A stretch of 64,000 nucleotides of DNA from a virus, in IMG/VR virus record IMGVR_UViG_3300041964_000014, positions 1 through 64,000 of that record; one strand, 5' to 3'. Shown here piece by piece: positions 1,250 to 60,376 of this stretch. The notes under the pieces were generated by a model that was not told where the DNA came from, did not search any database, and was given only the letters and a program-made list of their open reading frames with translations. Numbering within the stretch: position 1 is the first letter of the stretch; each line of letters begins with the position of its first letter. The position numbers and the translations under genes are program-made.

Positions 1250-2011
1250 CTATTCCAGTCCCAACACTATTTTGGCGGCTCGTTTTAAGTAACGGAGTTC
1301 CAATAAGTTACGGTTAGTACCTTGTTGTTTCGGACAAGCCTTTACATTCTTGCCTCCGCGTTGAAAACCACCTGCCCAGTGAGCTATACGACGACTTTGT
1401 GAATTATCAATACCATAAGCAGAACAGAAATCGATAGCCGTCATGAGTCGGTTGTCTATTTCGTTTTCTAGTTGATCTACTAAAATATCGGCACACCCTG
1501 GCTGAATTTCAGCTGCACGGTCAAACTCGCGTTCTTGTTGTTCGAGTTTGTCTAATCTTTGAGTACGTTCGGTTAATAGATTTATTGCTTCTCGTTGTTG
1601 TTGAAGCTCTGTTGCCATTTGTTGAATGATATTTCCAATATTTTGAAGATGATTATATTGAGTAAGAAGAGTAGTTTTCGCATTAGCAAAAGCTTTAACT
1701 AAATTAAATTTAGCTTCTACTACTTGTTCCGTATTGCTACTAAGCGTCATTAGAAATGTCGCCTGATTTTCGTTTAGTAAATAATAAACTTCTCCACCAG
1801 TTCCATCACTTAATTTTGGGCTGGTTTCTCGTAATAGCCTGCTGCGGTTCTCTCCCGCCACAGGGTTAAGAGCCTCGTCTACCAGGCTTTCCAGCCTTTC
1901 CGTATACTTAGAAATTGTCTCTTTGAAGCTCTTATGTAGAATACCCAAAGCTTCGGCTACTAAACGGGAATCCACCAATAACTGTCCACCGACGTTTTGA
2001 ATTTCTAACAT
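1250..2011 (-). CDS. Rha-like phage antirepressor, paralogue 1
   Basis: A 253-residue protein with a Rha-type N-terminal domain (residues 1-110; LLVDSRLVAEALGILHKSFK, then YYLLNENQATFLMTLSSNT), a Gln-rich coiled coil (about 120-165) and a C-terminal domain with P-GCADILVDQ and a basic end (LELRYLKRAAKIVLGL). The same order occurs at 4532-5233 and 7088-7804. Rha-type proteins are phage regulators, often DNA-binding antirepressors. A hairpin lies 35 bases upstream of the start, and a ribbon-helix-helix gene diverges from it at 2120. Function by family only. Confidence 0.8.
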   Translation of the reverse strand: MLEIQNVGGQLLVDSRLVAEALGILHKSFKETISKYTERLESLVDEALNPVAGENRSRLLRETSPKLSDGTGGEVYYLLNENQATFLMTLSSNTEQVVEAKFNLVKAFANAKTTLLTQYNHLQNIGNIIQQMATELQQQREAINLLTERTQRLDKLEQQEREFDRAAEIQPGCADILVDQLENEIDNRLMTAIDFCSAYGIDNSQSRRIAHWAGGFQRGGKNVKACPKQQGTNRNLLELRYLKRAAKIVLGLE

Positions 2012-2045
2012 GATACAATAAAGTAAAGTAAGCTGTTTTACACAT

Positions 2046-2078
2046 AGCCACTTGAGTCAGTTAATCGCTCTTGTGGCT
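2046..2078. promoter_or_regulatory. inverted repeat upstream of Rha paralogue 1
   Basis: AGCCAC (2046-2051) and GTGGCT (2073-2078), extended by GAG/CTC inside, sit between the divergent antirepressor and ribbon-helix-helix genes. Comparable inverted repeats lie at 5261, 7837, 8267 and 27800. It could be an operator or an RNA leader hairpin. Confidence 0.55.
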
Positions 2079-2119
2079 GTTTTAATGTTAACATATTATT
2101 GTTGTTGTTATGTGGCTAT

Positions 2120-2266
2120 ATGAAAGCGAAAAGGTTACATATTCTCATGAGTGAAAAAAGATTAAATAAATTACGTGCTTTAGCTAAACAGCGAGAAAAA
2201 ACTATGACCAGCTTAGTTGAAGACTGGATAGATAGTTTGCCTAATCCAGAATCGTTAGATGTATAG
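2120..2266 (+). CDS. ribbon-helix-helix regulator (48 aa)
   Basis: A short protein with the Arc/CopG layout: a beta strand (KRLHIL), then helix SEKRLNKLRALAKQREKT, then helix MTSLVEDWIDSL. Such proteins bind inverted-repeat operators as dimers and often control their own gene and a neighbour. It diverges from the antirepressor at 1250-2011 with an inverted repeat between them, which fits a regulator and target pair. An alternative start is the Met at residue 10, which would lose the strand, so ATG 2120 is preferred. Confidence 0.7.
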   Translation: MKAKRLHILMSEKRLNKLRALAKQREKTMTSLVEDWIDSLPNPESLDV

Positions 2267-2326
2267 CCTGAAATGCCCGTGGTTGTCGGTTTGACAGAAA
2301 TGCTGAAAGTTAAATCAGCAAAACAA

Positions 2327-2365
2327 AGCCGGGAGTCCAAAATAAACAGGAGTTCCCGGCTTACT
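2327..2365. terminator. terminator-like hairpin with a repeat-like loop
   Basis: AGCCGGGA (2327-2334) pairs with TCCCGGCT (2354-2361). The loop GTCCAAAATAAACAGGAG is one or two bases away from the GTCCGAAATAAATAGGAG repeat found elsewhere. Confidence 0.55.
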
Positions 2366-2381
2366 AGTATATTGTTGAAAT

Positions 2382-2534
2382 TTAGTCTGTGTATCCTAAG
2401 CTCTTAAGAAAATAACGTACATCATTGAAACTATCGAAGATATGCTCTCTATCAGATGTCGGATCTTCAAACCGTAAGCAATACTCGTTAGCAGTTACGT
2501 TGTAAGTTAATACAAAATTTTTCTTGGTATGCAT
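2382..2534 (-). CDS. small hypothetical protein (50 aa)
   Basis: ATG at 2534 to TAA at 2382-2384. Compact mixed-charge protein beginning MHTKKNFVLTYNVTANEYCL and ending FLKSLGYTD. It lies alone on the minus strand between plus genes and upstream of the hairpin at 2327-2365. No domain recognised. Confidence 0.45.
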   Translation of the reverse strand: MHTKKNFVLTYNVTANEYCLRFEDPTSDREHIFDSFNDVRYFLKSLGYTD

Positions 2535-2581
2535 AGGTGCTTTTAAACTATTATATAGTTATTACAGTGTAGCTTAAAGCA

Positions 2582-2884
2582 ATGTCTTATGTAGAGCCTT
2601 TAGTTAATGATTTGAAACAAGAGTATCAAACTATGCTACGAAAATATTGGGCATCAAACATAGTAATACCTTCTAATAGATATGTGTACGGTTATCCTGT
2701 GTTACCGCCTCATTTGGAATACGAGGTTACAGTAAGTTACAAAGACGGATTTCCACGGGTAACTAAACGTATAGCTACAAATATCTCCAAACAATATTTA
2801 GAGCCATATCTTCCAGAACCTCCCGAAGAAGTCCGAAAACAACAAGAAGCCGGAAAAGAGATACTGGCACTGTTTAGTAAATAA
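2582..2884 (+). CDS. hypothetical protein (100 aa)
   Basis: ATG 2582 to TAA. A soluble protein with helix-rich N terminus (VEPLVNDLKQEYQTMLRKYW), a Pro/Tyr-rich middle (NRYVYGYPVLPPHLEYEV) and a charged C-terminal helix (PEEVRKQQEAGKEILALF). No recognised domain. It ends just before a strong hairpin terminator and stands alone. Confidence 0.6.
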   Translation: MSYVEPLVNDLKQEYQTMLRKYWASNIVIPSNRYVYGYPVLPPHLEYEVTVSYKDGFPRVTKRIATNISKQYLEPYLPEPPEEVRKQQEAGKEILALFSK

Positions 2885-2897
2885 ATAGTCAACAATT

Positions 2898-2925
2898 AAC
2901 CCTCCCATAACTGAGAGGGTTAAAA
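2898..2925. terminator. bidirectional terminator
   Basis: AACCCTC (2898-2904) pairs with GAGGGTT (2915-2921), followed by A-rich sequence on the plus strand and serving convergent genes. The stop codon of the minus gene touches the stem. Confidence 0.7.
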
Positions 2926-3707
2926 GTCGAAGTTAGCTAGTTGTTCGAGAGTCTTTCCGGAGCTAGTTACTACTTGAGTACTGTATAACTCCTTGACCTG
3001 TTGTATTTCGGACTCTGTAACTTCATTGTTCGGTTTATCTTCTTCTAGCTTTCTAAGTTGTAGTGATTCAGTAATTAAGTCATCTATGAACTGATGATCG
3101 AATTTCTCCCATATATCTAGTGCTGCCGTTGGATACAGCTCTAGAAGTATTGCTAAGTGGTAGGCATCAAAGTTTCCAGATCGGGGTTCAGCTCTGTCAT
3201 TACCTGATTTACTGATACCATTACTTCCGCTTTCCTTTCCCTCGCTGTCACTAGTGCCTTTCCCAATAGTGAGCCTTGGTCTAAATGATTTAACTTAGCT
3301 AGCAGACCGGGCTTTAAACTTCCCTCTGAGTTAGCTACACCGTCTTCTGTTACGTCTTCTGTGAAGAATAATAGTGTGAGCATATCGTAATCATCTTCTA
3401 ACTCGGCAAGGTTGAGTGAGGTTCTATCTCCATTAGCTGAGATTACTGGTACTAATTTAGCTAGTTCTTCTAGTGTTTTCCATCCTTGTTCACTAGCTAT
3501 TACACTACCAACTGCAAAGTTATGATACAGAAACTCTTCGAGATTAAGTTGATATAGCTTAATAAAGTCAGCTAGATTACTACGAGGTATCCGCTTAATA
3601 GTGTACTTTAGTTTCTCACTAGTATTGTGGTAACTACTAACTCTAATAGTTAAGTAACCATCTTCGAGGGTGTAACGAGGTTCTTCCACAGTTGCATTCT
3701 TTTTCAT
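2920..3707 (-). CDS. candidate tail assembly chaperone with -1 frame extension
   Basis: The first frame (3153-3707, 184 codons) ends in a TAG. The -1 frame then continues as good protein (HLAILLELYPTAALDIWEKF...) to TAA at 2920, giving about 262 residues. Position after the tail tube candidate and a -1 shift are what lambda-type G/GT tail assembly chaperones show. However, I see no canonical slippery heptamer, and one added A in GAAAC near 3168 would also give an intact frame (DLENFDAYH). Many other genes here have the same break, so a sequence error is as likely as recoding. Function is inferred from position only. Confidence 0.45.
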
Positions 3708-3748
3708 GTGAATAGCTAGTACAATTGATTTGTGTAGTAAGTTATCTA

Positions 3749-4012
3749 CTATACTAGCTTATCATCTTCTGTATTTTGATGTTCTAGTGTGTAGGTAGTA
3801 GGTTCAGCAGCAGCAGGTTTGTTGATTAACAAACTAACAATACCTCCGCTAAGTCCGCCAATAACAGTTAGTACTTTACGGAAACTATCGTTGCCGACAT
3901 TGTTACTAACTAGTACTGCACAGATAACACCAAGTACTCCAAGGTACGAGGTAATTACGTTTAGTTCTATCTTGTTGAAAGTCAAAGTCAAATATCGTTT
4001 AACAGGTGACAT
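3749..4012 (-). CDS. small membrane protein, possible holin-like
   Basis: An 87-residue protein with two hydrophobic segments (about residues 15-35 and 45-66, VLTVIGGLSGGIVSLLI) and a polar acidic C terminus (LEHQNTEDDKLV). Two helices with a charged tail resemble holins, but small phage membrane proteins are very diverse. It is 42 bases upstream of the gene at 2920-3707 and reads the same way. Confidence 0.5.
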   Translation of the reverse strand: MSPVKRYLTLTFNKIELNVITSYLGVLGVICAVLVSNNVGNDSFRKVLTVIGGLSGGIVSLLINKPAAAEPTTYTLEHQNTEDDKLV

Positions 4013-4014
4013 AT

Positions 4015-4242
4015 ATGAGTGGTGAAATGTGTTGGTTATCTACATATAACAATTCTACTAAGATTCTGCACGTCCGAAATAATAAGGAGGAGCAGTGGAA
4101 ACCCTATACAGCTATGGCAATAAGTAACATCCCAGATTACAATATTCCACAAGGATCAAAAGGTTGGGCAGCATACCAGCGATTAAGAAATATGGGATGG
4201 ACATTAGTACCATCCCCACAAACTACTACGAAGGATGATTAG
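4015..4242 (+). CDS. hypothetical protein (75 aa)
   Basis: The likely start is ATG 4015 (MSGEMCWLSTYNNSTK); an ATG is not available at the longer upstream start without overlapping the divergent gene. A GTCCGAAATAATAAGG repeat at 4072 is inside the gene and encodes VRNNKE. Sequence is Trp/Tyr-rich with no known domain. It is followed 6 bases later by a zinc-motif protein. Confidence 0.55.
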   Translation: MSGEMCWLSTYNNSTKILHVRNNKEEQWKPYTAMAISNIPDYNIPQGSKGWAAYQRLRNMGWTLVPSPQTTTKDD

Positions 4243-4248
4243 TATTTT

Positions 4249-4446
4249 ATGGCTGCTAATAGTGCTATAAGAATGAAGGGATTAAAACAGTGTTGTATTG
4301 TAACCATACAAAAAGATACAGCTACTAAAGACGAAGAAGGTAAGTTAATTAAGTGCCCTTTTTGTTTGGCTAACTTACGCTACCGTGATGGGGCTTTTGA
4401 ATGGTCTAACTTACCATACTCAAATCCAGCGGCTCCTGAAGAATAA
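4249..4446 (+). CDS. small zinc-finger-like protein
   Basis: A 65-residue protein with CC at residues 15-16 and a KCPFC knuckle at about residues 36-40 followed by LANLRYRDGAF, which suggests one metal site. The C terminus is Pro-rich. It belongs to a plus-strand pair with the gene at 4015 and ends before a terminator. Function unknown. Confidence 0.55.
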   Translation: MAANSAIRMKGLKQCCIVTIQKDTATKDEEGKLIKCPFCLANLRYRDGAFEWSNLPYSNPAAPEE

Positions 4447-4470
4447 ATGCAGTAAGTTTATCTAACGGTA

Positions 4471-4507
4471 AACCCTCTTAATCCAAAACAATTAAGAGGG
4501 TTAAATT
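4471..4507. terminator. bidirectional terminator
   Basis: An 11-bp perfect stem, AACCCTCTTAA (4471-4481) with TTAAGAGGGTT (4492-4502), followed by AAATTTT. It separates convergent genes. Confidence 0.8.
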
Positions 4508-4531
4508 TTATAAGGTTTAAACAGTACTTAT

Positions 4532-5233
4532 TTACAGACCTAATACAAAACGTGCCGCTTGTCTTAAATAACGTACTTCCAGTAATAGCTGCCCGTTAAC
4601 TTTAGGTACTGTAGTTACTTGTTTACCAACTTTTTGAAAATAACTAGCAGACAACGATAAACGACGACGATGGCGAATTTCAATGCCCCGGTCTGTCATA
4701 AATTGCAGAGTAGTCATTACCTGGTCGTCATCTTCGCCATACTCCATTTCATCAACAAGTACACCAGCACAACCCTTATGTTCGGACGCTGCTTTATCGA
4801 AAGCTTCTTCTTTGGCTTGGTACGCTTCCAACTTGTTTTTGTCTACCGATAGAGCATCAAGTTTAATCATTACTTCTGCCATTGTGGTTTGCCACGCAGC
4901 CTGTTGTGCTTGCTGTTGAATATTGTAGAGAGCTTGTTTGGCTTTGGAGAAAGCTTGTACCAAATTAAGTTTAGCTTTCTTGACTTGCTCTGTATTGCGG
5001 GAAAGCGTCATCACATATGTAGCTTGATCTTCTGTTAGTAAATATACTACTTCGTTTTGATTCGACGTAAAAGAAGGTTTGGTTTCACGCCGCAACTGCC
5101 CAAAAGCTTCTTCTATGTCTGATGCATTATTAGATACTGTGTCTTTTAGAGAGTTATGCAAAACACCTAACTCTTCAGCTATCAGACGAGAATCCACAAC
5201 TAATACGCCATCTCTCTCAATTGCTTCTAACAT
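4532..5233 (-). CDS. Rha-like phage antirepressor, paralogue 2
   Basis: A 233-residue paralogue of the proteins at 1250-2011 and 7088-7804. N-terminal Rha-type domain (VVDSRLIAEELGVLHNSLKDTV; VVYLLTEDQATYVMTLSRNT), coiled coil about 115-150, then the shared C-terminal domain (HKGCAGVLVDEME; LLEVRYLRQAARFVLGL). A hairpin (5261-5287) lies 28 bases upstream and a ribbon-helix-helix gene starts divergently at 5336. It is likely to be a phage regulator acting on repressor or host promoters; target unknown. Confidence 0.8.
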   Translation of the reverse strand: MLEAIERDGVLVVDSRLIAEELGVLHNSLKDTVSNNASDIEEAFGQLRRETKPSFTSNQNEVVYLLTEDQATYVMTLSRNTEQVKKAKLNLVQAFSKAKQALYNIQQQAQQAAWQTTMAEVMIKLDALSVDKNKLEAYQAKEEAFDKAASEHKGCAGVLVDEMEYGEDDDQVMTTLQFMTDRGIEIRHRRRLSLSASYFQKVGKQVTTVPKVNGQLLLEVRYLRQAARFVLGL

Positions 5234-5260
5234 GATATAATCCTTAGTAAGTTACTTTAT

Positions 5261-5287
5261 AACCACTTAGTATTTAGCTAGGTGGTT
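5261..5287. promoter_or_regulatory. inverted repeat upstream of Rha paralogue 2
   Basis: AACCAC-T-TAG (5261-5270) pairs with CTA-G-GTGGTT (5278-5287). On the plus strand it is followed by TTTTTG, so it might also end transcription coming from the left. Confidence 0.55.
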
Positions 5288-5335
5288 TTTGTTTGCTATA
5301 TTTAGAATAGCATTAATACATAAAAGATGTGTGCT

Positions 5336-5473
5336 ATGTCCCAAAAAAGAAAACGACTTAACTTAGTATTACCACTAGGGGAGTATATTAGATTAGCTAG
5401 TTATGCTGAAAAAACAGGTCGTACTATAACTGATGTACTTAGAGAGCTTATCCGTTCTTTGCCCGACTCTTGA
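5336..5473 (+). CDS. ribbon-helix-helix regulator (45 aa)
   Basis: ATG 5336 to TGA 5471. Strand KRKRLNLVLP, helix GEYIRLASYAEKTG, helix TITDVLRELIRSL: the standard ribbon-helix-helix fold. Divergent from the antirepressor at 4532-5233 with an inverted repeat between them, as at 2120 and 8352. A regulatory pair is likely. Confidence 0.7.
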   Translation: MSQKRKRLNLVLPLGEYIRLASYAEKTGRTITDVLRELIRSLPDS

Positions 5474-5489
5474 TAAGTAACTTATTATT

Positions 5490-5693
5490 ATGCCTACTAA
5501 ATACGTAGAGATTACTTGGCATCGTGGTGATTTGTGGGAAAGAAAGTACTTACGTAAAGCAGCTATTGCTAATGCCCGTAGATACATTAGACAGTATTGC
5601 CGTAAACAGCTTAAAAGTATAGGTCATAATTTTAACGATAGTACTGAAGATACTTTTGAGCATCCTAAAGTAAGACTACCTTGGTTTGATTAA
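5490..5693 (+). CDS. hypothetical basic protein (67 aa)
   Basis: ATG 5490 to TAA. A Tyr/Arg/Lys-rich helix (WERKYLRKAAIANARRYIRQYCRKQLK) is followed by an acidic end (STEDTFEHPKVRLPWFD). The basic helix could contact nucleic acid. It starts 16 bases after the ribbon-helix-helix gene and is likely in the same transcript. Confidence 0.6.
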   Translation: MPTKYVEITWHRGDLWERKYLRKAAIANARRYIRQYCRKQLKSIGHNFNDSTEDTFEHPKVRLPWFD

Positions 5694-5697
5694 TATT

Positions 5698-5981
5698 ATG
5701 TTCAATAAAATAAACCTACCTATTTATTTCGGACGTAAGGCTACTAATTTATACGCTTATTGTCCACGTACAATTGGATTTGCTTTTCTCTGTGGGAGAC
5801 TTGCTTTTTGTATTGGAGAACCGAAGCTTATGCAGATGAGTTTGATAATCCTGAGAATATATATGATTTTGTTTTAGTAATAGGTATTAAAATACCTACT
5901 GTATTTTCAAAAGACCATGTAATTATTAAGGGCATTACTCACGATACCGTATATGGCTGGGAAGTATCTTTATGGCAATGA
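5698..5981 (+). CDS. small phage paralogue family member, frame broken
   Basis: Starts MFNKINLPIYFGRK and contains the family core GFAFLCGRLAFCIG (compare WLGKLAISLGG at 8770 and WLAFRIG at 9060). The frame then goes wrong; the -1 frame gives acidic, credible protein (EAYADEFDNPENIYDF ... VYGWEVSLWQ) to TGA at 5979-5981. One added base near 5810-5830 restores 94 codons. A repeat copy at 5727 encodes YFGR. Function unknown. Confidence 0.5.
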
Positions 5982-6032
5982 ATTATCCTGAACAATAGTA
6001 TTTAATAGTCCGAAATAAATAAGGGAGGTTTT

Positions 6033-6182
6033 GTGATTAACCTTAAGATGTTACTATTCACTTTTATTATCAATGTAGTAGTGTTATCGATTTTAGATAG
6101 CATACTATCTACTAAACCTGTTGATTTAGTAGCTAATATAATTGCGGGATTTTTAGTAGCTATACTATTGAGTTTTAAATAA
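6033..6182 (+). CDS. small membrane protein (49 aa)
   Basis: GTG 6033 with a strong GGGAGG ribosome site 6 bases upstream; the site forms the tail of a GTCCGAAATAAATAAGGG repeat at 6008. Two hydrophobic segments (residues 5-24 and 31-48). The stop overlaps the next ATG (TAATG), so translation is coupled. Function unknown. Confidence 0.6.
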   Translation: MINLKMLLFTFIINVVVLSILDSILSTKPVDLVANIIAGFLVAILLSFK

Positions 6183-6418
6183 TGAAAGATTACCTAAACT
6201 TATTACACCGACAAAGAAGTATCTATTTAAAGCATCGAGATACTGTATGTGAAAACTACTCACTACAGCAATCACTATTAAGTCCCGCAGATAAAACTGC
6301 TTTAGCTAAACTATTCGCTAACTACACAAGAGACTTGAAAGAAATAGATGGTAACTTAGCTGGAATTAATGAAGAAATAGATAGGATAACAAACATTATA
6401 AAAAATAGTTCTAACTAA
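6182..6418 (+). CDS. hypothetical coiled-coil protein (78 aa)
   Basis: ATG 6182 overlaps the upstream stop by one base. The protein is helical and charged (YLNLLHRQRSIYLKHRD; KEIDGNLAGINEEIDRITN), consistent with a small coiled coil. No domain recognised. First of a run of four compact genes with gaps of 1-5 bases. Confidence 0.6.
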   Translation: MKDYLNLLHRQRSIYLKHRDTVCENYSLQQSLLSPADKTALAKLFANYTRDLKEIDGNLAGINEEIDRITNIIKNSSN

Positions 6419-6420
6419 CT

Positions 6421-6633
6421 ATGGTTAACTTAGTACTAATATCCCCAGATTTTACTCACATTAAACAATGTCAAGGTATTAATAAACTAGAAGCACTAAT
6501 ACAGTTTTATAACTGTAACAATAACAACGGTAAACTTCTACCTTATTACGGTGATTATTTAGTGTATAAAAGAACTAGTATTAACTTACAATACTTAGGA
6601 ATGCTAAATCAGTTGTATAATTATACAGGTTAA
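6421..6633 (+). CDS. hypothetical protein (70 aa)
   Basis: ATG 6421, two bases after the previous stop. Mixed sequence with Asn-rich centre (QFYNCNNNNGKLLPYYGDYL) and a Tyr-rich end. No domain, signal or membrane segment seen. Operon member by spacing. Confidence 0.55.
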   Translation: MVNLVLISPDFTHIKQCQGINKLEALIQFYNCNNNNGKLLPYYGDYLVYKRTSINLQYLGMLNQLYNYTG

Positions 6634-6637
6634 AACT

Positions 6638-6829
6638 ATGGAACTATCAGAAGCAGATATAAAAAGATGCATTAGTGACCTTAAAAACTATGTAGCTAGT
6701 GGTAACTATATTGAGGCTATTAGAACTGCGGAGATTTTTAGAGATCTTACTTTAACAACTGAACAGTACCAAGAAGTAAACGCACTATTAGAGCAAATTA
6801 AATTAGATAATACAGGACGAGGTATTTAA
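6638..6829 (+). CDS. hypothetical helical protein (63 aa)
   Basis: ATG 6638 to TAA. Acidic helical protein (ELSEADIKRCISDLKNYVAS; TEQYQEVNALLEQIKLDN) reminiscent of a tetratricopeptide-like helix pair but too short to assign. Tightly packed with neighbours, so co-transcribed. Confidence 0.55.
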   Translation: MELSEADIKRCISDLKNYVASGNYIEAIRTAEIFRDLTLTTEQYQEVNALLEQIKLDNTGRGI

Positions 6830-6830
6830 T

Positions 6831-7022
6831 ATGACCACTAACGTTGATAAATTCTTTACTTACGATCACTTACCCGCTGAGTTGCAGGAAATTAGTAAAC
6901 CTATTTGTGAACTAGCTGCATGGCTGAATAAAGTACTCTCAGACGGACCTGAGAAAAGTGTTGCTATGAGAAAACTACTTGAGGCTAAAGACGGTTTTGT
7001 TAGAGCCGCTCTAGACCGCTAA
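6831..7022 (+). CDS. hypothetical phage protein, Acb2/Thoeris-inhibitor-like shape
   Basis: A 63-residue protein with PAELQEISKPICELAAWLNKVL and PEKSVAMRKLLEAKDGFVRAAL. This layout strongly resembles a small phage family with a conserved Ser/Lys/Asp-rich C-terminal helix (KxxAxRKLLEAKDxxVRA), members of which have been described as cyclic-nucleotide sponges against host CBASS/Thoeris defence (Acb2/Tad1-type). The match is from memory of the motif, so treat it as tentative. Last gene before a terminator. Confidence 0.55.
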   Translation: MTTNVDKFFTYDHLPAELQEISKPICELAAWLNKVLSDGPEKSVAMRKLLEAKDGFVRAALDR

Positions 7023-7042
7023 GTTGTTTTAGTAAACAAAAG

Positions 7043-7065
7043 GAAACCCCCGCTTTGGGGGTTTC
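7043..7065. terminator. bidirectional terminator
   Basis: GAAACCCCC (7043-7051) pairs with GGGGGTTTC (7057-7065), 9 perfect pairs with a 5-base loop, between convergent genes. Confidence 0.8.
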
Positions 7066-7087
7066 GTATTATTGGGGTGTTATCTAC

Positions 7088-7804
7088 TTACAAATTTAGT
7101 AGTGCTTTCGTAGTTTGACGAAGATACTTAACCTCGATTAAAGTATGACCTTTCTTATTTTTTCGGACGGCATTGCTTGTTTTCCCTCCTTTCTGAAAAG
7201 CCGAAGCACGTCGAGCGATAGTGTGTAGGTGTCTGTAGTCTAACTGTAAGTAGTCTAACCATTCTTTAGTACTCATTTCTACATTGTCTATGTCCGCTTC
7301 TATCTGATCAATGAGAACATTAGCACAACCAGGATGCTCTTGAGCCGCTATGTTGAATTGTACTTGCTGTTGCTCTAGTTCATCGAGACGCTGAGTACGT
7401 TCTGTTAGTAACAGCATCTGTTGTTCTTGTGCTGCGGCTTTAGACTGAATATCTTGCAGTATCTGAACTATTCCGGAAATATCTGCTTGCTGTTGCTGTA
7501 AAGCCTTTTTAGCTATAGAGAATGCTTTAACTAGATTTAGTTTGGCTTGTACAACCTGTGTAGTATTCACACTTAGAGTCATCAAAAAAGTGGACTGATC
7601 TTCCGTAAGTAAATAGTACTTCTCTGGTTGACCTCTTCCGACTATTTCCCCGACCTCCAGTCGGAGTATTCCAAAGGCTTGTTCTGTCTGGTCTTTGAAT
7701 CTTTCTAACGTCCGTTTAAAAGACTCATGCTGAATACCCAATTCTTCAGCTATCAAACGAGAGTCTACTAGAAGTTGTCCGTTTATGTTCTGAATTTCTA
7801 ACAT
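7088..7804 (-). CDS. Rha-like phage antirepressor, paralogue 3
   Basis: A 238-residue protein with LLVDSRLIAEELGIQHESFK and YYLLTEDQSTFLMTLSVNT in the N-terminal domain, a Gln-rich coiled coil at about 110-155 and the shared C terminus (HPGCANVLIDQIE; IEVKYLRQTTKALLNL). It differs from paralogues 1 and 2 in having no ribbon-helix-helix gene opposite, but it keeps an upstream inverted repeat at 7837-7868. Confidence 0.8.
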   Translation of the reverse strand: MLEIQNINGQLLVDSRLIAEELGIQHESFKRTLERFKDQTEQAFGILRLEVGEIVGRGQPEKYYLLTEDQSTFLMTLSVNTTQVVQAKLNLVKAFSIAKKALQQQQADISGIVQILQDIQSKAAAQEQQMLLLTERTQRLDELEQQQVQFNIAAQEHPGCANVLIDQIEADIDNVEMSTKEWLDYLQLDYRHLHTIARRASAFQKGGKTSNAVRKNKKGHTLIEVKYLRQTTKALLNL

Positions 7805-7836
7805 GGTATAATGGTTACGTTAATAGGTTTCCATTT

Positions 7837-7868
7837 AGCCATCTGACTTATCACTAGCTCAGATGGCT
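7837..7868. promoter_or_regulatory. 10-bp inverted repeat upstream of Rha paralogue 3
   Basis: AGCCATCTGA (7837-7846) and TCAGATGGCT (7859-7868) are perfect inverted copies with a 12-base loop. Nearby, CTTGTCAA occurs twice in tandem (about 7893-7911); on the minus strand this gives TTGACA, a -35-like element. Confidence 0.55.
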
Positions 7869-7947
7869 ATTAGTAGATTAGCCTATAAAAGAACTTGTCA
7901 ATCCTTGTCAAAATATATTATTATCGTTTCAACGCCGCTAAGGGATA

Positions 7948-8238
7948 TCAAATAATGGTTTCGTTTACACTAGCTTCAAAACCAAAAGTAGATGCTGATG
8001 GATTATCTAAATTAAAGTATGTAGGTAGATAGTACAAATCGCTGGGACGCCCTCCCTGTGGAGTTTCCCCCGTAATCAGGGAATAGTCAAAACCTTCTTC
8101 AAAGTTATTCTTTAGTACATCTACCAGTTTGTCTTTACGGGAATAGCCTAGCCACTGCCAAGCATTTTCTAGAGGTACAGGGAAGGTTTCTTCGGATTGA
8201 AAGTAGTATTGTGCGTGAGATAGATTAAAATCTGTCAT
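7948..8238 (-). CDS. short AntA-like antirepressor
   Basis: Preferred start ATG 8238 (MTDFNLSHAQYYFQ), giving 96 residues. FPVPLENAWQWLGYSRKDK...GFDY...PQGGRPSDLYYL matches the N-terminal domain of the protein at 59630-60376 (FPVDFEQAYVWLEYSRKD...VDFK...SQGGRPTEIIKL), an AntA-type antirepressor fold. The C-terminal part present there is absent, and the end reads ASTFGFEASVNETII, so this copy is truncated or an intentionally short form. Divergent from a ribbon-helix-helix gene. Confidence 0.65.
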   Translation of the reverse strand: MTDFNLSHAQYYFQSEETFPVPLENAWQWLGYSRKDKLVDVLKNNFEEGFDYSLITGETPQGGRPSDLYYLPTYFNLDNPSASTFGFEASVNETII

Positions 8239-8266
8239 AATTAAGTAAATCCTTAAGTGTTGTTTT

Positions 8267-8302
8267 AGCCACAAGAGTCATTTAATAGTCGCTCTTGTGG
8301 TT
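8267..8302. promoter_or_regulatory. 11-bp inverted repeat upstream of AntA-like gene
   Basis: AGCCACAAGAG (8267-8277) and CTCTTGTGGTT (8292-8302). The stem is almost identical to the one at 2046-2078, which suggests the same regulator may recognise both. Confidence 0.6.
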
Positions 8303-8351
8303 ATCTTTATGTTATAGTTTTTATAGTGAAATTGTCAAGCGAGTAAATAGT

Positions 8352-8510
8352 ATGACTGAGAAAAAAGCTAGGTTCTTTTTTAAGGGAACTCCTGAGTTAC
8401 ACAAGCAAGTCAAATTAATGTCAGTAGAAACAGGAAGAACACTGGAAAGCATTTGTATCGAAGCACTTGAACAGTGGTTAGAGCGTCAGCAGGATAATAG
8501 TCCGAAATAA
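8352..8510 (+). CDS. ribbon-helix-helix regulator (52 aa)
   Basis: Start ATG 8352 chosen because the fold begins there: strand KKARFFFKGT, helix PELHKQVKLMSVETG, helix TLESICIEALEQWLERQQ. The final codons NSPK and stop are encoded by an AGTCCGAAATAATAAG repeat, exactly as in the gene ending at 54151. Divergent from the AntA-like gene. Confidence 0.75.
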   Translation: MTEKKARFFFKGTPELHKQVKLMSVETGRTLESICIEALEQWLERQQDNSPK

Positions 8511-8521
8511 TAAGAGTAATT

Positions 8522-8565
8522 AGCCTTTTAATTAAACTGTAGTTAGTACTAGTAATTAAAAGGCT
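8522..8565. terminator. hairpin terminator
   Basis: AGCCTTTTAATTA (8522-8534) pairs with TAATTAAAAGGCT (8553-8565), 13 perfect pairs around an 18-base loop. Confidence 0.65.
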
Positions 8566-8572
8566 ATAACTT

Positions 8573-8767
8573 ATGTACTATTTAAGTGATATAAATACTA
8601 TCGAATTTAAAGCCAGCAAAGGTTTTAGTAGAAAAGTAGCTTATGTACTTAACGAGGCTAAAGCAGGTAAGCTACATAGCGGTAGTAAAGCAGGTAAAAA
8701 AGTTAGGAATAAGAAACAAGCGTTAGCAATAGCGCTTAGTGTGGCTAAAAAGGAATACGGTAAATAA
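8573..8767 (+). CDS. tagged DUF6496-like small basic protein
   Basis: Begins MYYLSDINTIEF, the same hydrophobic-SDI leader seen on the head-region tagged proteins (compare MYYLSDINTINF at 26536). The rest (NEAKAGKLHSGSKAGKKVRNKKQALAIALSVAK) matches a widespread small basic family (DUF6496-like) found in bacteria and phages. It lacks the ARKKGSKDKKK cluster. It is the only tagged gene on the plus strand and far from the head genes. Function of the family is unknown. Confidence 0.65.
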   Translation: MYYLSDINTIEFKASKGFSRKVAYVLNEAKAGKLHSGSKAGKKVRNKKQALAIALSVAKKEYGK

Positions 8768-26943: not shown

Positions 26944-27771
26944 TTAGTTAAGCTCTTTTACCAGTAGTTTATTTAAGCACAGTTGAAGTATAGGGTATTC
27001 TGTAAAATGGTACACACTAACACCATTATTCCACTTACCATTCTTACCTCGTTTATTAACTGTTTTAGGGTCTTTACCAGTAACTGTCTTATAGGTTTCC
27101 GATAACAGTAAACTAAATTGCCTCTTTTTAGTAGTGCCTAGTGTAATATCATTTTTAGCTAACCATTCCGTAGCAGTCATTTCTGTTACATCTGGTTCGT
27201 CGTCTAATAACTCATCCTCAACTTCTAATTTAGTCAACATATTATCGAGGTTAGGAAACACTTTAGTAGTAATACCCCGCATTGTTTTGTAAGCCTGCGT
27301 GGTTTCTTTTAACTCAGTTACTTCTGTAAGCACTTGTTGCAGTGTACTGAGTAGCTGGGGCATTATTGTTTCGGACTGACTAGCAGTGGCGTATCCTGTG
27401 AGTTCTTTAATCCAGATATCAATACCCTTTTTAGCAAACTTACGAAAAGCAAACTTAGCAGTATCATTAGCAGCTTTCGATTCAAAAGCATAGTATTCGA
27501 TGATGCCAGCACACACGTCAGAAGGAACCACTTCCGCATTATTAGAGGCAGAAGCGCGAACCCAGGATACCCTTGGGGTAAGGTTTTGAAGGATTTCAGA
27601 GGTAGTCAAACTCCCCCCTACTTTGGATAGCGTATTACGCATCGTTGACTCTGCTACCCCGCATAACTTGGCTAGACCTACCTGGCTCATTCCAGTATAT
27701 GTTCCATCGTTGGATACATAAAACTCAATTTCGTCAACAGTGGTCGGATTAACTACAATAGATTCAGACAT
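26944..27771 (-). CDS. KilA/antirepressor-like regulator (275 aa)
   Basis: IEFYVSNDGTYTGMSQVGLAKLCGVAESTMRNTL is an N-terminal HTH-like region typical of phage and cyanobacterial antirepressors; the middle has a coiled coil and SSxNN-like linker; the end (TEWLAKNDITLGTTKKRQFSLLLSETYKTV ... YHFTEYPILQLCLNK) matches in plan the C terminus of the Rha paralogues (short helix then basic end). A perfect 11-bp inverted repeat lies 29 bases upstream. It is between capsid and tagged genes, suggesting insertion of a regulatory cassette. Confidence 0.65.
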   Translation of the reverse strand: MSESIVVNPTTVDEIEFYVSNDGTYTGMSQVGLAKLCGVAESTMRNTLSKVGGSLTTSEILQNLTPRVSWVRASASNNAEVVPSDVCAGIIEYYAFESKAANDTAKFAFRKFAKKGIDIWIKELTGYATASQSETIMPQLLSTLQQVLTEVTELKETTQAYKTMRGITTKVFPNLDNMLTKLEVEDELLDDEPDVTEMTATEWLAKNDITLGTTKKRQFSLLLSETYKTVTGKDPKTVNKRGKNGKWNNGVSVYHFTEYPILQLCLNKLLVKELN

Positions 27772-27799
27772 TAGATTTATTAAGAAACTACTTCTTTAT

Positions 27800-27842
27800 A
27801 CTACTTTAGACGGCTATGAAATTAGCCTGTATCTAAAGTAGT
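27800..27842. promoter_or_regulatory. inverted repeat with inner stem
   Basis: ACTACTTTAGA (27800-27810) and TCTAAAGTAGT (27832-27842) are perfect 11-base inverted copies; inside, GGCT and AGCC pair as well. Same placement, before the start of an antirepressor-like gene, as at 2046, 5261, 7837 and 8267. Confidence 0.6.
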
Positions 27843-27916
27843 ATTTTTATCTCATTACAGCTTACGGGGTTTAGAATACTACTACTACGACTTCTTATAG
27901 TTATAAGCTATTTTAA

Positions 27917-34394: not shown

Positions 34395-34637
34395 ATGACA
34401 AAACGTATCACTAATATAAATAAAGTTATTGGTAGTAAGCTTAAAAAAGCCAGAGACTACCGAGGTTATTCCCAGAGTCAGTTTGGTAAAGTAGTGCATT
34501 TAAATCAAACGCATATTTGCAAAATAGAAACAGGAGAGCGGGGTTTAACTATCGACAATTTAATTGCCTTTAGTAAAGTGCTTAATGTTAGCCCTCTTTA
34601 TTTCCTCAGCGATTTCGAGAAAGATAATCAATCTTGA
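34395..34637 (+). CDS. XRE/Cro-like helix-turn-helix regulator
   Basis: An 80-residue protein with IGSKLKKARDYRGYSQSQFG (helices 1-2), HLNQTHICKIETGERGLTID (recognition helix and turn), and LIAFSKVLNVSPLYFL: standard Cro/C1 HTH. It probably represses a phage promoter. It is the only plus-strand gene between 26 kb and 41 kb. Confidence 0.85.
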   Translation: MTKRITNINKVIGSKLKKARDYRGYSQSQFGKVVHLNQTHICKIETGERGLTIDNLIAFSKVLNVSPLYFLSDFEKDNQS

Positions 34638-41525: not shown

Positions 41526-42404
41526 TTATAGTTCGTTAAATAAACAGCTGTAGTACGGGTCTAATTTAATAGTGTTTAAATGGTCTTGTTGATATCGCCA
41601 CTTACGCTTAAGTCCTTTTATAAAATAACTATGTGCTAATTCTTTTATAGTAATAGCACTAACTTGGTTATGAGTAGTATCAACTAAACGTATAACTTCG
41701 GGGCTTATATTATATGGGCTTAAGAATATTAGTTTAGCGGACTTATTAGGATAAGCTTGTTGTTGCAGTATTTCAAAATAACCTCGCTTACATATAGCAG
41801 TAGTAATATCGTCTACAGTAATAGGATTCTTTTTAAGCTCATAAGCTTCGATAGTTTTAGAGGTATTACGGTAGAAATCAAATCTACGCTTATCTTTGTT
41901 AAGTAGGTTTAGTATAGGGTGTTCAATATTAATATTACTATAACCACATAAACACATCCAACTATGTAGTCGTCTAGCCAAATCAGCTTCCATTTCTGGC
42001 TGTAAAGGGATAGCGTTGAGTTTTAAGTGATTTCGATTATACCAATATTGCTTTTCTTTTAATAACTCGTTAATACGATTTCCAGCTCTTTGAACATACT
42101 CCGCAGTTATTCTTGCCATAAATATTTGAAAAGGAACAGCTTTGGGTTGTTCGGATTTCTGAAGTAAAAGAAAGCACTGCTCCATACTCAAGTAGTCCAT
42201 TTTATACCTCTTGCCGTTAGAAGCAACTTTCTCCGCAACGAGGAAAGTACCAGAAGCCCCTTCTATAAAGGGTTTTAGCTTAGACCATATTTTACTGGGA
42301 TTGCTATATTCCAAGGCTGTTAATATGTCTTGTGCTGAGTAGTAGAATTGCCCGTCCTTATATATGTGACGTATTTCGTAGTTTTCAAATTGCTTGACTA
42401 ACAT
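41526..42404 (-). CDS. BRO-N antirepressor fused to nuclease-like domain
   Basis: A 292-residue protein. The first 110 residues (EIRHIYKDGQFYYSAQDILTAL ... YLSMEQCFLLLQKSEQP) are a BRO-N-type fold used by phage antirepressors. The C-terminal half (RRFDFYRNTSKTIEAYELKKN ... ITTAICKRGYFEILQQ) has the D...E-x-K pattern of a PD-(D/E)XK-like nuclease. Divergent from the ribbon-helix-helix gene at 42477. The nuclease assignment is motif-level only. Confidence 0.65.
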   Translation of the reverse strand: MLVKQFENYEIRHIYKDGQFYYSAQDILTALEYSNPSKIWSKLKPFIEGASGTFLVAEKVASNGKRYKMDYLSMEQCFLLLQKSEQPKAVPFQIFMARITAEYVQRAGNRINELLKEKQYWYNRNHLKLNAIPLQPEMEADLARRLHSWMCLCGYSNINIEHPILNLLNKDKRRFDFYRNTSKTIEAYELKKNPITVDDITTAICKRGYFEILQQQAYPNKSAKLIFLSPYNISPEVIRLVDTTHNQVSAITIKELAHSYFIKGLKRKWRYQQDHLNTIKLDPYYSCLFNEL

Positions 42405-42476: not shown

Positions 42477-42844
42477 ATGGCTTCTGAAAATAGTATAACT
42501 ATCGGAGTAAGCGATGCGTTCAAAGAAAAACTACTAACCTTAGCTAAACACGAGAATAGAACACTGTCTGCGTATATTAAAAATATCTTAGAAACGCATT
42601 AAAAAAATACGAAGCTCCCGACTGGTTAGGCTTTCCTTTTGATCCTGAAGGAACATACTCTGCTCCAGTAATATCTCCAGATACTTTAGAAGAGTCCGAA
42701 ACAATAAATGCACTGAAACAAGCGCAACACATTAACAAGATTATCCAACAAGACCACCGGGCGAGTTTAGATACACTACAACAACAACTCGATACTTTGT
42801 TTGACGAGATAGCCCGCCTTAAGCAGATAGTTAGTAGTAAGTGA
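42477..42844 (+). CDS. ribbon-helix-helix protein with C-terminal coiled coil, frame broken
   Basis: MASENSITIGVSDAFKEKLL...TLSAYIKNIL is a ribbon-helix-helix domain, ending at a TAA after 42 codons. Without it, the -1 frame reads ALKKYEAPDWLGFPFDPEGT ... LDTLQQQLDTLFDEIARLKQ to TGA at 42842, a classical coiled coil. One added A near 42590 (GAAACG) joins them into 122 codons. Divergent from the BRO-N gene as other ribbon-helix-helix genes are from their antirepressors. Confidence 0.6.
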
Positions 42845-59629: not shown

Positions 59630-60376
59630 ATGACTGAGTTTAGTTTGGATTTGGCTAAAGAATTAGTAGCATCTAACGATGAGTTTCCTGTTGATTTTGA
59701 GCAAGCATATGTTTGGTTAGAGTACTCTCGTAAGGATGTTGCAAAACGAGCGTTTTTAAATGTAGGCTTTATTGAGAATGTCGATTTCAAGGTTTTCCAC
59801 ACTTCTGCGGAAAACTCCCAAGGTGGTCGTCCCACTGAGATTATTAAGTTGACAGTAGATTGTTTCAAGCAATGGGGAATGGTATGTGGCAACGATAAAG
59901 GAAAACAGATTCGTTTGTATTTCCTTGAATGCGAAAAGGTAGCCAAACAAGTAACTAATATCCCTGCCGAAATGTTGCAGTTTATGCAGACTATGCAATC
60001 AGAAATGCGATTATTAAGGGAGCGTACTGAGAAACTAGATATTGTACAAGAAGAAAAGCAGCAACTAGCGTCAGAACTCCAAGACCGTAACACACTACTC
60101 AAACTGCTGGATGAAGCGGGCTACGAACACCAGGGTTGTTACAACATTGTCAATCAAGCCGTAGTTTCCCCAAAACAACGACTATTCACAGCTTTTAAGT
60201 ACCTTGATCATATGGGATACGATACTGGGTTTGCCAATATACTTGCACGTCGAGCAGCTGCTTTCTACCGTACTAGTAAGAAAATCGAGCCGCACCGTGA
60301 TGCAGATAATAATCTGCTGTTTGAGGAAAGCTATTTAGCAGAAGTATATGAAGCACTCAAGCAAGTAGACGAATAG
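59630..60376 (+). CDS. AntA-like antirepressor (248 aa)
   Basis: N-terminal AntA-type fold (FPVDFEQAYVWLEYSRKDVA; VDFKVF; QGGRPTEIIKLTVDCFKQWG), then a coiled coil (about 120-155, MLQFMQTMQSEMRLLRERTE), then a C-terminal domain with HQGCYNIVNQAVVSPKQRLF and ARRAAAFYRTSKKI. The C-terminal part matches that of the Rha paralogues (H-x-GC, aromatic-RR-basic), so N-terminal domains have been swapped on a common tail. Confidence 0.7.
   Translation: MTEFSLDLAKELVASNDEFPVDFEQAYVWLEYSRKDVAKRAFLNVGFIENVDFKVFHTSAENSQGGRPTEIIKLTVDCFKQWGMVCGNDKGKQIRLYFLECEKVAKQVTNIPAEMLQFMQTMQSEMRLLRERTEKLDIVQEEKQQLASELQDRNTLLKLLDEAGYEHQGCYNIVNQAVVSPKQRLFTAFKYLDHMGYDTGFANILARRAAAFYRTSKKIEPHRDADNNLLFEESYLAEVYEALKQVDE

Follow-up and report, generated by a model that had tools for sequence, protein, structure and literature searches.

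The stretch of DNA analysed here (the window, 64,000 nt) comprises bases 1-64000 of a 111,188-base IMG/VR virus record and carries, between positions 1250 and 8510, a 7-kb cluster of Rha- and AntA-type regulator genes accompanied by small divergent genes for ribbon-helix-helix (RHH) proteins and by inverted repeats (IRs) shortly before the regulator start codons. We read this arrangement, with a probability of about 0.5, as a multi-copy, domain-shuffled switch resembling immI of phage P22, with overlapping divergent transcripts. The initial annotation had described a set of toggles, each with its own operator and built from interchangeable parts; its observations were mostly confirmed, and the circuit is best seen as one of shared, partly cross-talking control repeats, not of independent toggles.

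RHH genes and repeats at the probable regulator transcript starts

A motif scan of the 111-kb record recovered four clear RHH-like (Arc-like) open reading frames, rhh1 to rhh4, and each of them (4/4) is divergent from a regulator gene, namely rha1, rha2, antA1 and bro1, as had been noticed at the outset (Table 1). Profile support from Pfam and PHROG is weak but consistent, with E values of about 1e-4 to 0.05 that lie below the Pfam cut-offs. The genes rhh1 and rhh2 are related, and kinship between rhh3 and rhh1 is not detectable (pairwise score 24); a search of phage records with RHH3 gave no match. Furthermore, the nearest relative found, IMGVR_UViG_3300018984_000002 (handle G788; an IMG/VR contig of 127,110 bases, hereafter the sister phage), has a gene with an rhh1-like N terminus (E 8e-10) divergent from a Rha gene, and the order is the same in both phages: RHH start, 43 nt, IR AGCCACAAGAG..CTCTTATGGCT, 33 nt and Rha start in the sister phage, and 45 and 34 nt in the rhh1-IR1-rha1 module, as counted on the printed sequence. 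Four modules therefore have an RHH gene that neighbours an antirepressor-type gene and points away from it, and one of these modules is conserved in the sister phage; this adjacency constitutes the strongest support for a putative functional pair. The sister RHH1 homologue (L252:13053-13619) is fused to a C-terminal extension of ~130 aa without a Pfam match.

The five IRs initially reported are all present (Table 1), and in kilA2, at 110 kb, an IR ends 30 nt before the start codon (all such distances run from the end of the proximal arm to the start codon, on the regulator strand). When compared with dinucleotide shuffles at the same position (400 shuffles for the rha3 and 26944 IRs), four of the six IRs exceed chance on their own, i.e., those of rha3 and of the 26944 gene (P<0.0025, 0/400 each), antA1 (0.007) and kilA2. 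The exceptions are rha2 (P 0.125) and rha1 (P 0.25), which are not significant alone and which we accept because of their position and homology, the rha1-type IR being kept in the sister phage. In particular, homology between the leaders of rha1 and antA1 extends over ~80 nt and takes in the -10-like TAACAT (P<0.002); the two also have in common the stem AGCCACAAGAG, with two mismatches in rha1, as the initial annotation had pointed out. The four Rha/AntA repeats resemble versions of one element, A[AG]CCA[CT]..., with paired arm changes from C-G to T-A in rha3 and from G-C to A-T in rha2. If the IRs made by a dispersed repeat (described below) are left aside, a score of at least 9 at the IR position occurs in 4/12 regulators versus 2/165 other genes (p 2e-4).

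The IR lies directly behind the -10-like box of the regulator, 26-34 nt ahead of the ATG and thus near the transcript start. A further extended -10-like box, TGnTAYAAT, overlaps the start codon in rha1-3 as well as in the sister Rha gene and is oriented towards the RHH gene; the TGATACAAT box of rha1, which has a weak -35 and falls outside the consensus promoter list, has TGATATAAT as its counterpart in the sister phage, and the box is also kept in rha2 and rha3. Within the IRs, mismatches of the transition type are A.C on the regulator strand in 8/8 cases, or 9/9 with the sister phage. Since A.C breaks the pairing on the regulator strand and the opposite strand has G.U instead, the RHH strand is the one on which the hairpin is more stable, and RHH-strand RNA gave the better folding in 4/4 cases tested (RHH strand/regulator strand: -14.4/-12.8, -13.7/-8.5, -19.8/-12.8 and -19.1/-12.7 kcal/mol). 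A hairpin formed by the IR in the mRNA of the regulator itself is disfavoured, the mismatches there being A.C. As for the view that the hairpins act only as terminators, a terminator-like score was obtained for IR2 alone, on the + (RHH) strand.

We hypothesize that each RHH protein would repress the neighbouring regulator, as Mnt represses ant in P22. Given that the conserved TGnTAYAAT box covering the rha start codon is oriented towards the RHH gene, the regulator and RHH transcripts would extend towards each other. The IR would lie in their overlap and serve as its shared control point. We lean towards an IR that exerts its effect chiefly in the RHH-strand RNA, folded into a hairpin (a leader/attenuator, or an antisense RNA of the sar kind), and give almost the same likelihood to a DNA operator that overlaps the transcript start. 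The regulator could be released early in infection to reset a repressor, the phage's own genes or those of a rival phage, and cross-talk between modules (rha1 and antA1) would be expected, with no private key for each lock. A single RHH-IR-Rha module was probably duplicated to give the 7-kb cluster.

Table 1. Regulator genes, RHH genes, inverted repeats and promoter-like boxes of the record
Feature	Position	Strand	Description
rha1	1250..2011	-	Rha N-domain, coiled coil and common C-domain; PF09669 1.4e-12, 48.5 bits
rha1 box TGATACAAT	2011..2019	+	Extended -10-like; overlaps rha1 start codon, faces rhh1; candidate rhh1 promoter
IR1 (rha1)	2046..2078		AGCCAC(AA)GAG..CTC(AA)GTGGCT on rha1 strand; ends 34 nt before ATG
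rha1 -10-like TAACAT	2085..2090	-	6 nt before IR1; same hexamer in antA1, TATCAT in sister phage
rhh1	2120..2266	+	48 aa; divergent from rha1; motif; no RHH-named profile match
rha2	4532..5233	-	PF09669 2.1e-11, 44.7 bits
rha2 box TGATATAAT	5233..5241	+	Extended -10-like; overlaps rha2 start codon, faces rhh2
IR2 (rha2)	5261..5287		AACCACCTAG..CTAAGTGGTT on rha2 strand; ends 27 nt before ATG
rhh2	5327..5473	+	ATG 5327 or 5336; divergent from rha2; RHH_5 0.004, Arc-like phrog 0.002
rha3	7088..7804	-	Behind antA1, no RHH of its own; PF09669 1.4e-13, 51.7 bits
rha3 box TGGTATAAT	7804..7812	+	Extended -10-like; overlaps rha3 start codon
IR3 (rha3)	7836..7869		TAGCCATCTGA-12-TCAGATGGCTA, perfect 11 bp; ends 31 nt before ATG
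antA1	7948..8238	-	AntA N-domain only, 96 aa, truncated; 39% to antA2, E 1e-13
antA1 IR	8267..8302		A(A)CCACAAGAG-14-CTCTTGTGGCT, IR1 family; ends 30 nt before ATG
antA1 TTGACA-18-TAACAT	8309..8338	-	Promoter-like; just before antA1 IR; best promoter match of 1900-8600
rhh3	8352..8510	+	Divergent from antA1; Antitox_RHH 2e-4
26944 gene ('KilA-like', kilA)	26944..27771	-	BstA-N/HTH-like N part
26944-gene IR	27798..27844		ATACTACTTTAGA-21-TCTAAAGTAGTAT, perfect 13 bp; ends 26 nt before ATG
bro1	41526..42404	-	BRO-N, PF02498 1.8e-12, 48.2 bits (cut-off 25.6); no common C-domain, no IR
rhh4	42477..42602	+	Divergent from bro1; Arc-like phrog 0.002, FitA-like RHH 0.017
antA2	59630..60376	+	AntA N-domain on common C-domain; no IR, no RHH
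74906 gene	74906		Outside window; new N-domain on common C-domain
antA3	83641-83847		Outside window; broken AntA, followed by rha4 at 83964
rha5	96671		Outside window
bro2	100702		Outside window
kilA2	110062-110990		Outside window; split paralogue of 26944 gene

Domain exchange among the regulators and the setting of the record

The record holds about fifteen Rha/AntA/BRO/KilA-type regulator genes. PF09669 (Phage_pRha), whose curated cut-off of 29.9 bits is exceeded by rha1-3 and by the sister Rha (41.7 bits), bears out all three Rha assignments made initially, and the BRO-N assignment of bro1 stands likewise. For antA2, PF08346 gives E 3e-4 and 21.9 bits, just below the Pfam cut-off of 27, but the protein matches the anti-repressor phrog (5e-15). 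As regards antA1, its AntA-like character holds for the N-domain, which is homologous to that of antA2; the C-domain is absent, and there is no match to PF08346. The label KilA-like, by contrast, had to be withdrawn for the 26944 gene, which does not match KilA-N (PF04383), a family that in the record is matched only by the genes at 88.3 and 89.1 kb, both outside the window. This gene matches instead the N-terminal part of BstA (phrog 5e-9, PADLOC 6e-16), over residues 6-131 only (profile 14-146 of 292), and the PADLOC 'HTH' model (1e-26), and it has full-length relatives in the Pseudanabaena phages Pam2 and PA-SR01. Its interpretation as BstA with an aba element was dropped, the match being limited to the N part. 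The BstA-N/HTH-like family to which it belongs (26944-27771, relatives L164-L193) occurs in large cyanophages, frequently as multiple copies in one phage; some members have a hairpin at the transcript start and others have none.

The common C-domain (x-x-GC ... R-Y-L) was found in rha1-5, antA2 and the 74906 gene. In hhalign, rha1-3 and antA2 reach 96% and the 26944 gene only a weak 24%, so that the proposal of different N-domains on a common C-domain is valid for rha1-3 and antA2 (and, beyond the window, for rha4, rha5 and the 74906 gene) but not for antA1 and bro1, from which the domain is absent. The AlphaFold model of rha3 has a mean pLDDT (predicted local distance difference test score) of 79, and gave no significant PDB match, with only weak MerR/RacA-like winged-helix similarity, so that we assign no fold to the C-domain; the C-domain alone, searched in phage records, gave no match.

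The kinships of the two parts of these proteins conflict. The rha4 N-domain is 69-72% identical to that of rha2, whereas its C-domain is 20% identical to that of rha2 and closest to that of antA2 (38-40%). The sister phage has its AntA domain joined to a 74906-type C-domain (54%) and its BRO-N domain to a rha5-type C-domain (60%), and in its Rha protein a rha2-type N-domain (71%) is followed by a rha1-type C-domain (55%). Because the N-domain and C-domain kinships disagree both within the phage and with respect to the sister phage, domains have been exchanged among paralogues, and the comparison of the sequences shows Rha-, AntA- and BRO-type N-domains recombined on one C-domain family, in agreement with the interchangeable parts proposed at first. 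At the end of the broken antA3, a different reading frame encodes a tail that resembles the end of rha4.

The record codes for a terminase, and its capsid, terminase and replication genes are 25-35% identical to those of Pseudanabaena phage PA-SR01; the host, judged from these relatives, is probably cyanobacterial. The sister phage has 80/140 genes (at least 80 aa) in common with the record, with a median identity of 50% and a largely collinear gene order. It surfaced only in a search with the AntA alignment; single-protein scans of IMG/VR with rha3, antA2 and kilA and a megablast search against phages and plasmids returned no close relatives. Scans of the window for tRNAs and for Rfam families found none.

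A dispersed element, GTCCGAAA(T/C)AATAAGG, pervades the record: 101 copies of GTCCGAAA occur in 111 kb versus ~2.7 expected, divided 52/49 between the strands, about one per 0.9-1.1 kb, within and between genes (e.g., 4072, 6008, 8500, 41398/41434, 57015/57044 and 61397/61425). Eleven inverted pairs, 26-51 nt apart, form hairpins, and in front of rha4, the first KilA-N gene and bro2 (83889, 88248 and 100638) such a hairpin replaces the 'private' one, 26-39 nt before the start. The sister phage has 85 copies, PA-SR01 has 4 and CL131 has 2. A stoperator-like, an uptake-like and a terminator role are candidates for this element.

Repeats at other loci and alternative readings

Similar repeats were found at other loci. 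The Rha families L009 and L013 have IRs 29 and 31 nt before the start, with a T-A to C-G paired change between the families; a Bacteroidota Rha family has an IR 24-27 nt before the start, and in the 26944-like families L166 and L186 it lies 28 and 27 nt before the start, right behind TATAAT. In a dereplicated set, which is not phylogenetically independent and includes pairs of a host repeat, GCGATCGC, a score of at least 8 was reached in 12/39 Rha genes versus 14/218 control genes (p 6e-5); some apparent IRs in cyanobacteria are pairs of this host repeat. The IR as a universal Rha feature was rejected, with CL131, Streptococcus satellites and Pseudomonas and Acinetobacter phages lacking a strong IR at this place. 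As these comparisons indicate, an IR at the transcript start is optional for regulator genes of this kind. Two Bacteroidota genomes contain about six to eight Rha matches each (L030, L032, L033, L034, L037 and L041), several with a near-identical leader hairpin, GCCCC(AA)GCAAG..CTTGC(AA)GGGGC, which is terminator-like on the opposite strand.

Several observations weigh against a P22-like circuit. Pattern scans found no RHH neighbour at the L009, L013, Bacteroidota, L166 and L186 loci, annotated phage Rha genes are mostly without an IR, and only 1/32 loci of AntA homologues has one. Within the record, bro1 has an RHH partner without an IR (P 0.58), rha3, the 26944 gene and kilA2 have an IR without an RHH gene, and rha1 and antA1 have the same IR next to unrelated RHH genes. 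The promoter boxes are consensus matches only, whose number in the region is not above the shuffled mean, and the leaders are probably G-poor, which favours A.C over G.T, so that the mismatch bias is only moderately strong. Moreover, the IR search parameters varied during exploration, and the p values given here were not pre-registered. Finally, searches for a tyrosine integrase and a serine recombinase found none, and the single Xre/HTH_3 gene of the record (34395-34637) lies on the + strand among - strand structural genes, with a counterpart in the sister phage; with one such gene and no recombinase, a lysogenic repressor to antagonise is not established. The term antirepressor should thus be taken as denoting homology only, a family resemblance. 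The Xre gene is a candidate target of the regulators.

These points bear differently on the other explanations. If each IR were the DNA operator of its own RHH protein, the modules working as the independent toggles proposed initially, one would understand why an RHH1-type gene and the AGCCACAAGAG repeat are found together in two phages despite a changed Rha N-domain, why RHH1 and RHH2 are related and diverged as IR1 and IR2 are, the dyad being preserved by paired changes (C-G/T-A, G-C/A-T), and why the half-site GTGGCT appears a third time at 2112-2117. This third copy stands just before the rhh1 ATG, near the expected rha1 -35, and is weak in the sister phage. However, repeats and RHH genes dissociate in both directions in the record (bro1; rha3, the 26944 gene and kilA2; the one IR of rha1 and antA1), and IRs without an RHH gene recur in other contigs, so that the picture of one RHH protein and one operator fails as a rule, even though RHH1 and the AGCCACAAGAG repeat nonetheless travel together; we consider this model unlikely. 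A repeat serving instead as operator or leader hairpin for autocontrol by the Rha-, AntA- or KilA-type protein, with the RHH genes as a separate matter, agrees with the IRs found at the same place, next to no RHH gene, at Rha loci of viral contigs and Bacteroidota and in two KilA/BstA-like families; yet the sister Rha carries a rha2-type N-domain on a rha1-type IR, and antA1, with an AntA domain, has the same IR as rha1, with a Rha domain, which makes autocontrol rather improbable.

A hairpin or terminator opposite the regulator, giving either a short sar-like antisense RNA or an attenuator in the RHH leader, would account for the A.C-only mismatches of the sense strand and the better folding of the RHH-strand RNA, for the terminator-like IR2, for the runs of T that follow the hairpin on the RHH strand in rha1, rha2, kilA, the sister phage and Bacteroidota loci, and for the TGnTAYAAT box retained at the start codons of rha1-3 and the sister Rha. 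On the other hand, rha3, L009 and L013 have no T-run, L009 and L013 have no such box, and base composition explains part of the A.C bias; as an explanation by itself we hold it with reserve and find it somewhat doubtful. A quite different possibility, compatible with several of these control models and one that we take seriously while placing it short of even odds, is that the regulators are generic, or serve superinfection competition, in a virulent phage with no lysogenic switch. The lack of integrase and serine recombinase fits this, as do the relationship of the structural genes to those of lytic PA-SR01 (PMC7431792) and the example of CL131, which has AntA, BRO and Rha homologues yet acts as virulent (PMC6293099), while the Xre/HTH_3 gene kept in the sister phage argues the other way, and plasmid-like or carrier states would also be conceivable. 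That the repeats have no regulatory role, being remnants of a single duplicated leader, dyads due to chance or terminators of the ordinary kind, could be suggested by the rha1 and rha2 IRs, not significant alone, and by the many hairpins of an AT-rich genome, including those of the dispersed GTCCGAAA repeat; the paired arm changes, the conservation in the sister phage and the constant position make it a very improbable reading.

An extension of our preferred reading, the duplicated P22-like switch, to a wider range of organisms is speculative, and we regard it as improbable in its full form. In several phyla, the transcript start of Rha-family genes would harbour a hairpin whose action is on the other strand, from a promoter over the regulator start codon, as a short, terminator-ended antisense RNA or as an attenuator of the RHH leader; in the cyanophage lineage it would be joined to an RHH repressor, yielding duplicated, cross-talking immI-like switches whose N-domains could be swapped with no change to the control region. 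Should the preferred reading be true, several diverged RHH/antirepressor switches of the P22 type would stand side by side in one phage, with domains, RHH genes and control repeats that have been swapped or have diverged through known steps, and the sister phage would represent the simple single-module state. This would provide a direct test of how a regulatory switch is duplicated and then insulated or left cross-talking, would offer a concrete candidate circuit for cyanophages, whose decision circuits are little known, and would correct the idea of each hairpin as the private operator of its RHH neighbour.

Comparison with known regulatory systems

Exchange of N- and C-domains is common in the BRO-N/KilA-N/AntA/Rha class of regulators, and Iyer et al. 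reportedly described in 2002, as domain shuffling, the exchange of these N-domains on common C-domains. Different from that general pattern, the shuffling seen here takes place between paralogues of one phage and its sister, and the N-domain is replaced inside a frame of RHH gene, IR and C-domain that is kept.

The Xre-Bro pairs (Makarova et al. 2009, PMC2701414) are similar in that two genes, one for a small DNA-binding protein and one for an antirepressor, form a stable unit, whereas here an RHH protein takes the place of Xre and the arrangement is divergent. Cyanophage CL131, a large virulent phage without integrase or other lysogeny genes, carries homologues of AntA, BRO-N and Rha (ORF002, ORF062 and ORF094; PMC6293099); it has, however, one of each, and its Rha gene lies in an operon, with no strong IR before the start and no divergent RHH gene. 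With regard to BstA/aba (PMC8585504), the N-terminal ~130 aa of the 26944 gene product match BstA profiles, and a repeat is located near the start codon in both systems. The aba element is a 63-bp element with terminal direct repeats that overlaps the start (PMC8585504); the 26944 gene differs in its unmatched C-terminal half and in having an inverted repeat 26 nt upstream of the start.

In P22, ant is controlled by Mnt, Arc and the sar antisense RNA (PMC11016777). The phage described here is unrelated, has several copies of the module with one RHH gene in each, uses regulators of the Rha, AntA and BRO families, and carries an IR at the transcript start, any repressor targeted by the regulators being only putative. 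What it has in common with immI is the arrangement in which a small RHH repressor gene adjoins an antirepressor gene (PMC11016777).

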